Origin: Desulfovibrio mangrovi
GTDB taxonomy: Bacteria; Desulfobacterota; Desulfovibrionia; Desulfovibrionales; Desulfovibrionaceae
Assembly: GCF_026230175.1 (NCBI RefSeq)
Contig: NZ_CP104208.1
Coordinates: 1,054,001 to 1,118,000, forward strand
Direction: 5' to 3'
DNA length: 64,000 nt
The translations under genes and the position numbers were made by a program. The notes below the pieces were generated by a model, which saw only the letters and a list, made by a program, of their open reading frames with translations, was not told the DNA's origin and searched no databases. Shown here one piece after another: positions 58,477 to 60,763 of the stretch; the stretch's first letter is position 1, and each line of letters opens with the position of its first letter.

Positions 58477-58767
58477 CTACTGTGCCATCACGGTGCCGAG
58501 CTGACTGAACACGGCCGTATGTTCACTGCTAACGCGCACGTCGTGCACGTCCTGCAGCTTGCGCATCTGACGGATCATCTGCTCAAGACGGTCATCCTCA
58601 TTCACGAGCAGCCAGATGCGGCTGACCTCGCCGCCATTCACCGGCAGACAGAGAATGGCTTCCACGTTGAAGGCGCGGCGGGAGAAGAGGCCGCACACAT
58701 GCGACATAACGCCGGGGTGGTTGCTCACCGTTACATCAAGAACCGTACGGGCAATCTGATTAGGCAT
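58477..58767 (-). CDS. ilvN: Acetolactate synthase small (regulatory) subunit
   Basis: A 96-residue single ACT-domain subunit, the size of E. coli IlvN and shorter than IlvH-type subunits. It binds valine and confers feedback inhibition on IlvB. ACT core: TVSNHPGVMSHVCGLFSRRAFNVEAI, split at about residues 12-37. ATG 58767 follows AAGGAG and overlaps the ilvB stop by eight bases, so the subunits are translationally coupled. Confidence 0.95.
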   Translation of the reverse strand: MPNQIARTVLDVTVSNHPGVMSHVCGLFSRRAFNVEAILCLPVNGGEVSRIWLLVNEDDRLEQMIRQMRKLQDVHDVRVSSEHTAVFSQLGTVMAQ

Positions 58768-60439
58768 TGGCTTCTCCTTCAATCATCATGCGGTTGGCCG
58801 CTCCGGGGGGAACCATGGGCAATACCTTTTCCTCCCTGCTCACAGGCACATGCACAAGGCACGGTCCGCGCTGGGCAAAGGCATCCTTCAGGTCGGCGTC
58901 GGGATCTTCGCTCTTGGCCAGATCAACGGTGCGCCAGCCGAAGCCTTCGGCAATCTTCATGAAATCCACTGCAATCTGGTATTCAGAGGAGAAGTAATTC
59001 GCCTTGAAGAACAGCTCCTGCTGCTGGTGTACCAGCCCGAGGCAGTTGTTGTTCAGCAACACCACGGTCACGTTCACGCGCTGCTCGGCCGCCGTAGCAA
59101 ATTCCTGAATATTCATCAGCAGGCTGCCGTCACCGCTGAAACACACAACCTTGCGCTCGGGAGCTGCCAGAGATGCACCAATGGCTGCCGGAAGACCAAA
59201 ACCCATGGTGCCGAGGCCGCCGGAGGTAAGCCACTGGCGCTCCTGCTTGAAGGGATAGCTTTGCGCCGTCCACATCTGGTGCTTGCCCACGTCGGTGCAG
59301 ACGATGGTGTTGTCGTCCACCAGTTCGCCAATACGGCGGATGAGCTTCTGAGGGCTTTCATAACCGCCTTCAAGCGGTGCCTGCTGCGGGAACGCGTTGC
59401 GAAGCGCAGAAATGAAGTCCAGCCACTCGGCACGGGGGTTCTTCTGCACCTTGGGCAACAGGGCATCCATGACATCGGCAATGTCACCGAGAATGCCGAC
59501 AGATGCCGTGCGGATCTTGTCGATCTCGCTATGATCGATGTCTATGTGGATAACCTTGGCCGTGGGACAGAATTCCTGCACCTTACCCGTTGCCCGGTCG
59601 TCAAAGCGCACCCCGGCCGCGATGATGAGATCGCAGGCTTCCAGCGCCATGTTCGTATAGCGCTCAGCATGCATGCCCAGCATACCAATGGACAGCGGAT
59701 GATCCTTGGGAATGGCCCCAAGGCCCATCAAAGTCATGGTCACCGGCATGGACGACTTGGTGGCCAGTTCAAGAATTCTGTCACTGGCGCCACCGGCCAC
59801 AACACCGCCGCCAACCCACAGCACAGGGCGCTTTGCAGCGTTGATCATGCCTGCGGCAGCTTCCAGATCAGCATCAAAGGCACGGGGCGCAGGATCGGCG
59901 TCTCCGGCTTCAGGCCACTTGGCAAAGGAAACTTCGCCCACCTGAATGTCGCGGGGAATGTCGATCAATACCGGACCGGGTCGTCCCGAGGAGGCAATCC
60001 GGAAGGCTTCGGGAATGACAGAAAGCAGTTCCTCACCCGAACGTACAAGGAAATTGTGCTTGGTGATGGGAATGCTCATGCCGTAGGTGTCCACTTCCTG
60101 AAAAGCATCCGTGCCCATCAAGGGGCTGGGCACCTGTCCGGTGATGCAGATGACGGGAACCGAGTCCAGCTTCGCATCCGCAATGGCGGTAAGAATGTTG
60201 GTCACTCCGGGACCGGAGGTTGCAAAACAGACTGCGGGGCTGCCGGTAACTCGCGCCATGCCCTGCGCGATGAAGCCTGCCCCCTGCTCATGACGGGCCA
60301 GAACATGATGAATATGGGTACTGCGGGAAAGCGCATCGTACAAAGGCAGGTTCGCACCACCGGGGATGCCGGAAATGATACGCACGCCCTGCCGTTCAAG
60401 CAGCTGTATGGTAAGCTCTGCGCCTGTCATCCTGAACAT
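58760..60439 (-). CDS. ilvB: Acetolactate synthase large (catalytic) subunit
   Basis: A thiamine-diphosphate enzyme making acetolactate and acetohydroxybutyrate, the first common step of Val, Leu and Ile synthesis. The 559 residues show the catalytic Glu region in ARHEQGAGFIAQG, SGPGVTNILTAIADA, the FAD-domain segment RFDDRATGK and the ThDP motif GDGSLLMNIQEFATAAE ... NNNCLG. ATG 60439 follows GAGGAG by six bases; the 17 upstream codons in frame cross the attenuator and are not coding. Controlled by the Val-rich leader. Confidence 0.97.
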   Translation of the reverse strand: MFRMTGAELTIQLLERQGVRIISGIPGGANLPLYDALSRSTHIHHVLARHEQGAGFIAQGMARVTGSPAVCFATSGPGVTNILTAIADAKLDSVPVICITGQVPSPLMGTDAFQEVDTYGMSIPITKHNFLVRSGEELLSVIPEAFRIASSGRPGPVLIDIPRDIQVGEVSFAKWPEAGDADPAPRAFDADLEAAAGMINAAKRPVLWVGGGVVAGGASDRILELATKSSMPVTMTLMGLGAIPKDHPLSIGMLGMHAERYTNMALEACDLIIAAGVRFDDRATGKVQEFCPTAKVIHIDIDHSEIDKIRTASVGILGDIADVMDALLPKVQKNPRAEWLDFISALRNAFPQQAPLEGGYESPQKLIRRIGELVDDNTIVCTDVGKHQMWTAQSYPFKQERQWLTSGGLGTMGFGLPAAIGASLAAPERKVVCFSGDGSLLMNIQEFATAAEQRVNVTVVLLNNNCLGLVHQQQELFFKANYFSSEYQIAVDFMKIAEGFGWRTVDLAKSEDPDADLKDAFAQRGPCLVHVPVSREEKVLPMVPPGAANRMMIEGEANA

Positions 60440-60489
60440 TGTGCACTCCTCTTCTGACCCGTTTTCTTCAACCGGTGGGGGGCGGGTCA

Positions 60490-60529
60490 AACAAGAACCC
60501 CCACCGGTGCCTGAGCGCTGGCGGGGGTT
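60490..60529 (-). terminator. ilvBN attenuator terminator
   Basis: On the minus strand AACCCCCGCC pairs with GGTGGGGGTT (one G-T), 50 bases before ilvB, then TCTTGTTT. The competing antiterminator pairs 60563-60575 with 60505-60517 over 12 of 13 bases, the latter lying in this hairpin's loop and 3' arm. Confidence 0.75.
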
Positions 60530-60556
60530 GATTTCAGTTTGTTCTGAACGAGCCCG

Positions 60557-60691
60557 TTACATCGCTGAGGCACCGACGCCATGCGAGACGATGACGTTGA
60601 CGACGACGTTGACGACGACCACTAGAACGACCACAGCCTGAATCAGGCTGTCAGCGATGAATGCTTGGGCGTTTTGAGTGGTATGTCGCAT
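60557..60691 (-). CDS. ilvBN leader peptide, Val-rich, 44 aa
   Basis: A short frame MRHTTQNAQAF... with 13 Val, 3 Ile and 2 Leu among 44 residues; residues 20-35 contain 11 of the Val, in runs VVV, VVVV and VVV. It ends just before the attenuator. A ribosome at its stop would cover the antiterminator's left strand (60563-60575); one stalled at the Val codons would leave it free. This is the design of E. coli ilvBN (ivbL) attenuation. The ribosome site is weak (GGGA). Confidence 0.8.
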   Translation of the reverse strand: MRHTTQNAQAFIADSLIQAVVVLVVVVNVVVNVIVSHGVGASAM

Positions 60692-60733
60692 GTGGGTTCC
60701 CGTTCTTATTCAGGAAAAACGTTTGTTTTCGGG

Positions 60734-60763
60734 AGAGTAGTTCCAGAAAAGCAGAATTGTCAA
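60734..60763 (-). promoter_or_regulatory. Promoter of ilvBN
   Basis: On the minus strand a perfect TTGACA lies 18 bases before TACTCT, giving a start about 36 bases before the leader-peptide ATG. Confidence 0.45.

Follow-up and report, generated by a model that had tools for sequence, protein, structure and literature searches.

A valine-rich leader that probably attenuates ilvBN in Desulfovibrio mangrovi, with likely kinship to Escherichia coli ivbL

The ilvBN operon of Desulfovibrio mangrovi is preceded by a valine-rich leader that probably switches the enzyme on only at valine shortage. We analysed a window of 64,000 nucleotides (NZ_CP104208.1, positions 1,054,001 to 1,118,000) from a genome that forms a single contig of 3.95 Mb. 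Comparative sequence data strongly support ribosome-mediated valine attenuation of ilvBN. With good confidence, we read the leader as a classical attenuator that senses charged Val-tRNA and controls ilvBN, passed down along with AHAS I and sharing ancestry with Escherichia coli ivbL. Promoter use, termination, stalling, the response to valine and the common descent of the leaders are all points that we infer from the sequence parts, their conservation and covariation, the identity of the enzyme, the ivbL-like RNA and the codon bias. The mechanism itself is ordinary and already known; the downstream S1/S2 pairing is a new candidate element.

Table 1. Features of the ilvBN leader region, in positions of the window.
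Feature	Position	Strand	Remarks
-35 box TTGACA	60763-60758	-	perfect consensus; from sequence
-10 box TACTCT	60739-60734	-	weak; spacer 18; chosen by eye
Leader ORF	60691-60557	-	44 aa, 13 Val
Likely control codons V20-V35	60634-60587	-	in leader ORF
Leader stop codon	60559-60557	-	from sequence
Antiterminator, left strand	60575-60553	-	last codons, stop codon and post-stop CGGG; 18 pairs
Antiterminator, right strand	60525-60505	-	part of terminator left arm, loop and first base of right arm
Intrinsic terminator hairpin	60529-60520 / 60505-60496	-	10 bp, one G-U, 14-nt loop
T-rich tail of terminator	60495-60489	-	from sequence
S1a CCGGTGGGGG	60507-60498	-	overlaps terminator right arm; complementary to 60481-60472
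S1b CCCCCACCGG	60481-60472	-	complement of S1a; 3' of terminator
S2 hairpin TGACCCG (60489-60483) / CGGGTCA (60461-60455)	60489-60455	-	encloses S1b; adjoins ilvB Shine-Dalgarno
ilvB Shine-Dalgarno AGAGGAG and ATG start	60452-60437	-	by eye
ilvB, AHAS I catalytic subunit	58760-60439	-	NCBIfam PRK08155
ilvN, AHAS I small subunit	58477-58782	-	101 aa, TTG start as listed; NCBIfam PRK08178

A preliminary description of this DNA had listed a promoter, a 44-residue peptide with 13 valines, a terminator and an antiterminator of 12 out of 13 bp as a complete attenuator. The peptide was confirmed as described (Table 1), its Val codons being 10 GTC, 2 GTG and 1 GTT, and the terminator is indeed present downstream of the leader, with a predicted hairpin energy of -22.6 kcal/mol followed by CTTGTTT. 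The promoter is putative. Its -35 box is a perfect TTGACA, located 288-325 nt ahead of the ilvB match in all ten sequences of the genus (the window's counted), but the -10 box is weak, and a consensus scan of the window listed neither the leader promoter nor the terminator. The ribosome site of the leader itself, judged by eye, is likewise weak. The antiterminator pairs of 60575-60563 with 60505-60517 are exact but had been drawn too short, as the best duplex has 18 pairs and runs across the leader stop codon. Nor was the list of parts complete, the downstream S1/S2 element having been missed.

The length of the duplex matters for the switch. Most of its first 12 pairs fall in the terminator loop, and a single stem base (60505) takes part. 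The remaining six (60561-60560 with 60519-60520, and 60556-60553 with 60522-60525) enter the left arm of the terminator, where the post-stop CGGG pairs with CCCG; terminator and antiterminator are therefore mutually exclusive. The predicted fold of the whole leader, in which the antiterminator is preferred, beats 200 of 200 shuffles (z -3.74). RNA freed by a ribosome stalled at V33 (60578-60505) is predicted to take the antiterminator fold (-31.4 kcal/mol), and RNA freed by a ribosome at the leader stop the terminator fold only. Over 90 nt past the V33-stalled ribosome, the predicted energies are -34.2 for the antiterminator and -34.0 for the terminator; with the two states within 0.2 kcal/mol of each other, the order of synthesis would decide. 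A 98-nt piece from 60586 prefers the terminator (-37.1), and a piece from 60578 the antiterminator. In these models, thermodynamics alone cannot choose between the two states.

We propose that, when valine is ample, the ribosome reaches the leader stop and would cover 60575-60553, upon which the terminator would form and the transcript end near 60489. With valine scarce, the ribosome would stall within V20-V35 and leave the left strand of the antiterminator free. The 18-pair antiterminator would then take up part of the terminator left arm, and RNA polymerase would continue into ilvB. Given the size of the ribosome footprint, a stall at V39, whose codon overlaps the antiterminator strand, would hide that strand.

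Orthologues of ilvB are present in ten of ten genomes of the genus, the window's among them, and in 67 of 149 family genomes at E 1e-180. The conservation set comprised all 68 upstream regions from genus and family genomes. Over the analysis as a whole, L003 and L004 were dropped as distant paralogues, and L158, which is the contig of L007, was not counted a second time. A script accepted as a leader any ORF of 12-75 codons whose last 28 residues hold three or more Val, including an adjacent pair, and which has a terminator-like hairpin 8-62 nt after it. Such a Val-run leader with terminator was called in 67 of the 68 regions, and in 59 when a more stringent rule required Val, Ile or Leu at 8 of 14 residues. 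A comparison of ilvB leaders among Desulfovibrionaceae, which the preliminary description had proposed as a check, has thus found the Val runs kept. The sole uncalled region, L042, has a Val-poor leader, yet its RNA scores 47.8 bits with R1, a covariance model of which it is no part. Family f4, of the same order, has a Val-run leader at ten of ten loci (L083-L092). Eight of these were called by script, and L083 and L085 were found on a corrected reading outside the script count. These two loci and L216 each have a Val-run leader (R1 scores of 56.0, 59.7 and 17.4, respectively), but are short and absent from the script, antiterminator, S1, S1+S2-search and codon counts.

As a control, the script was run on 62 loci whose acetolactate synthases are less similar (44-49% identity; L118-L181 minus L119 and L158). 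It called 14 of them and found no leader at 48. The calls consisted of 12 Val/Ile/Leu-rich leaders, which we take to be of the ilvL kind, one ambiguous case (L148) and one that is apparently spurious (L150). The genus's second ilvB showed no Val leader by eye, and no R1 match at six of its loci. Leader architecture varied in places. Tandem Val-leader and terminator units stand ahead of ilvB in L053, in L111, L112 and L113 (Desulfoluna) and in L211, which makes two or three lineages with tandem attenuators, L211 and Desulfoluna being weak tree neighbours. In L067, L070 and L072, three genomes of the genus g40, the leader has a single three-Val run and a TGA stop, and may be a pared-down attenuator.

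Base pairing is conserved along with the Val run. Of 46 lineage representatives, which include E. coli and two other gammaproteobacteria, 38 make up alignment A2. Three of the rest (E. coli, L115 and L116) were set aside deliberately; the other five (L037, L041, L053, L111 and L113) had low terminator scores, unusual ends or tandem copies. Terminator pairing is standard in 432 of 456 cells over the 38 sequences. Across the 46 lineages, native antiterminator strands pair at a mean of -23.9 kcal/mol versus -19.5 when permuted, and none of 5000 permutations was as good, in a count that, like the covariation counts, is inflated by kinship among the sequences. The native partner was best of all in eight of the 46 lineages, and in L102 the native partner is outdone by 36 of 45 foreign ones. 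Among the 38 aligned leaders, 83.4% of antiterminator cells are paired, versus 80.9% in shuffles (0/500) and 37-55% with the partner slid. Cells changed on both sides numbered 12 versus 4.6 in shuffles (0/500), and the number of pairs with double changes was matched by 44 of 500 shuffles. Column-wise covariation of the antiterminator is modest.

The Val and Leu codons of the leaders tend to be those that the same ilvB rarely uses. Over 60 loci, the 549 leader Val codons comprise 195 GTA, 213 GTC, 95 GTG and 46 GTT, versus 131 GTA, 626 GTC, 1041 GTG and 387 GTT among 2185 in the ilvB genes of these loci. Leader Val codons are rarer on average than those of their own ilvB at 54 of the 60 loci; the bias is missing at the other six, for example L104. 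GTC makes up 10/13 leader versus 6/40 ilvB Val codons in the window, and 8/10 versus 0/43 in the low-GC relative L009. Many other loci favour GTA, such as L023 with 7/7 in the leader versus 0/29 in ilvB. For leucine, CTA accounts for 49 of 153 codons in leaders versus 12 of 3167 in ilvB genes, and between leaders and genes Ala and Ser are nearly unbiased and Ile slightly biased. Across 47 ORFs of the window, GTC accounts for 308 of 1271 Val codons and is thus not rare, so that rarity is a property of ilvB and not of the genome. With Val codons mostly of the kind rare in its own ilvB, the attenuator would be expected to be sensitive. In leaders such as L087 and L024, Leu CTA often stands just ahead of the Val run, and such leaders may also sense leucine. 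The tRNA loci scanned carried the Val anticodons CAC, TAC and GAC, the last once within the scanned part of 59 matches; a GAC tRNA would presumably read 11 of the 13 Val codons of the window leader. Theory holds that leaders pick the codon whose isoacceptor loses its charge first, and the part of the same source available to us also cautions that codon rarity alone is an oversimplification (PMC1183508).

By its sequence, the window operon is an AHAS I orthologue. IlvB reaches 926.1 bits with NCBIfam PRK08155 (cut-off 870) and IlvN 146.8 bits with PRK08178 (cut-off 128), at identities to the E. coli proteins of 59%, and of 58% over 83 aa, respectively. E. coli IlvB shares 52-62% identity with the IlvBs that have a Val leader and no more than 48% with the remaining types listed. 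A tree of 73 selected IlvB rows has a 100/100 branch with all 40 Val-leader rows, one T-box row and three uncertain ones on one side and 29 others on the opposite side; E. coli is among the 40, its exact place inside being weakly supported. The T-box row touches on Clostridium bovifaecis L110 (L110:900-1150), where the enzyme falls in this AHAS I clade and lies under a T-box of 121.4 bits, with no Val leader. The ilvB of the window's genus is 73-76% identical to that of family f4 versus at most 67% to that of its own family's other genera, a pattern suggesting that the operon was transferred along with its leader.

The 38 leaders behind R1 include none labelled Gammaproteobacteria: 28 come from the window's order, seven are labelled Thermodesulfobacteriota and three have uninformative labels (L103, L104 and L108), of which two group with Desulfocapsa and Desulfobulbus at 100/100 and L108 is outside the tree. 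R1 gave 50.4 bits for E. coli ivbL (in a 4-kb stretch), 52.4 for Stenotrophobium and 54.0 for Steroidobacter, and in the genomes of the latter two the top match is the ilvB leader. AHAS I was found in eight of 274 gammaproteobacterial genomes at E 1e-175, and R1 scored 43-60 bits upstream of five of these eight ilvB genes, the Stenotrophobium locus being repeated among them. Five of five further loci of the phylum matched at 31.7 to 71.9 bits, one of which (L205) belongs to the same genome as L107, whose leader A2 includes, and is no independent match. R1 does not separate leaders cleanly from other terminators. Off-target places in whole genomes, presumably ordinary terminators, reach 43.2 bits, and low scores were seen ahead of AHAS I at the other three of the eight gammaproteobacterial loci, L212 (26.9), L216 (17.4, with a Val-run leader) and L219 (8.9), as well as for the first Desulfoluna unit (28.0, 27.6 and 11.4 bits).

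E. coli ivbL and the window leader share AHAS I, a Val-rich leader, a leader end like GCGCCGTAGGG and a terminator of the form AACCCC-GCCGGCGC..CGGGG. From leader stop to ilvB, the distance is 105 nt in E. coli and 117 nt in the window. In contrast to ivbL, the window peptide is longer, its Val codons are mainly GTC, and S1/S2 is present, for which the same search gave no candidate in E. coli. Pfam PF08049 (IlvB_leader) matches the E. coli peptide at 72.6 bits but none of ten other leader peptides including the window's, which is outside that family. The ilvL attenuator of ilvGMEDA (AHAS II) has the mechanism, the pathway and a Val/Leu/Ile-rich leader in common with the window, but belongs to another enzyme clade in the IlvB tree, and four ilvL-type leaders score 16-23 bits with R1.

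These data bear on the suggestion in the preliminary description that the likeness to IvbL may be convergent. That the same mechanism arose here independently of ivbL is consistent with the restriction of PF08049 matches to ivbL among the peptides tested, with peptide N-terminal halves that differ greatly among the leaders, with the overlap of R1 scores with other terminators, and with the thought that function could force GC-rich complementarity. We nevertheless regard an independent origin as unlikely, as R1 scores ivbL well above AHAS II leaders that share its mechanism, the 40 Val-leader IlvB rows all group together at the 100/100 branch, and intermediate lineages have both the leader and the enzyme. 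The operon being an AHAS I orthologue with ivbL-like RNA around the leader stop and the terminator, convergence is not supported; common descent fits better, because of the R1 score on ivbL and the 100/100 branch, and is the better reading, not proof.

Two other explanations were weighed. The peptide might act in trans like peTrpL, with attenuation secondary: the ORF is kept throughout a family, and PMC7298713, in the part consulted, reports an attenuator peptide that acts in trans. The peptides vary freely except at the Val run and at the 3' end, and RNA pairing accounts for the latter, which makes this reading very improbable. Even less credible is another amino-acid RNA sensor, a T-box or riboswitch, with the ORF as a by-product of GAC/GTC repeats. 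The T-box on the same-clade enzyme of C. bovifaecis speaks for such a sensor, but the window leader had no match in Rfam 15, T-box RF00230 included, and relatives keep Val while swapping GTC, GTA and GTG, unlike chance repeats. A Val run born of chance GAC/GTC repeats was accordingly rejected, relatives encoding Val by other codons. On the E. coli ivbL stretch, Rfam 15 found nothing but the neighbouring istR. One published result counts against the attenuation of ilvBN preferred here: at Streptomyces coelicolor ilvB, leader codon replacement was without effect, according to the portion of PMC1262725 at hand.

Branched-chain-rich uORFs before ilvB are known from actinobacterial ilvB leaders and from the ilvB-II, ilvB-OMG and Leptospira ilvB motifs, as far as the excerpts of PMC10272879 and PMC1262725 go. 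In the same excerpts, ilvB-II (Corynebacterium) and the Leptospira ilvB motif are other motifs, and the window leader matches neither in Rfam. We found no paper on a Desulfovibrio ilvB attenuator in the open-access library searched, which is weak evidence of novelty, and the terms 'leader peptide' and 'ilvB' are both absent from the accessible text of PMC545781, on delta-proteobacterial regulation.

S1a, in the right arm of the terminator, is complementary to S1b, within the hairpin that adjoins the ilvB Shine-Dalgarno, in ten sequences of Halodesulfovibrio (probably the window's genus, the window being one of the ten) and in eight of family f4; by eye, the S1/S2 element is present in L083 and L085 as well. 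Since the MAFFT alignment A1 did not align S2 between lineages, pairs were counted on helices chosen by hand, which leans towards structure; so counted, the 8-bp S1 core is paired in 18 of 18 sequences and the S2 strands fully paired in 18 of 18. Most S1 pairs are invariant. Double changes in S1 are C-G to T-A in the window and G-C to A-T in low-GC species, and in S2 GACCC/GGGTC to GATCC/GGATC and TCGGCTC/GAGCCGA to TCAGCTC/GAGCTGA. The S1+S2 score was above all shuffles (500 block and 500 single-base each) in nine of ten sequences; in L006, one block shuffle equalled it, and the search chose an S2 helix different from the one counted by eye.

Across 101 AHAS I regions, S1+S2 beat all 20 shuffles in 30, namely the 18 genus and f4 sequences and 12 others with scores of 31-45. 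No candidate was found in 39 regions, E. coli among them, and 32 were matched by at least one shuffle. With 30 of 101 regions above all shuffles, a pseudoknot common to all leaders was rejected. S1 alone, over 45 lineages, pairs at -18.4 versus -16.8 when swapped (0/5000), and is weak or absent in several.

The freed terminator arm and the hairpin before the ilvB Shine-Dalgarno could possibly form an H-type pseudoknot; alternatively, S1 pairing would open the S2 hairpin. A second switch, in which 60507-60498 pairs with 60481-60472 after antitermination and couples ilvB translation or stability to it, is a tentative proposal to which we grant a little less than an even chance. Because S1 pairing would be incompatible with the terminator, leaked transcripts and starvation transcripts would differ at the ribosome site. 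The element may act as a pseudoknot, as a translational switch or as a lock on the antiterminated form. The LEU element of actinobacterial leuA likewise combines a leader peptide with a conserved pseudoknot near the Shine-Dalgarno; as described in part of PMC1262725, its Leu codon run pairs with the Shine-Dalgarno, whereas in the window the partners would be an arm of the terminator and the loop of a hairpin downstream of it.

Our results place ivbL-like attenuation well outside the gammaproteobacteria and tie it to one enzyme clade. The codon data from 60 loci lend themselves to a natural test of the theory that selective charging governs which codons leaders use. If real, S1/S2 would join control of termination and of translation in one leader. 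The attenuator would also be traceable as the inherited companion of a gene, replaced by a T-box in Clostridium and doubled in a few lineages.
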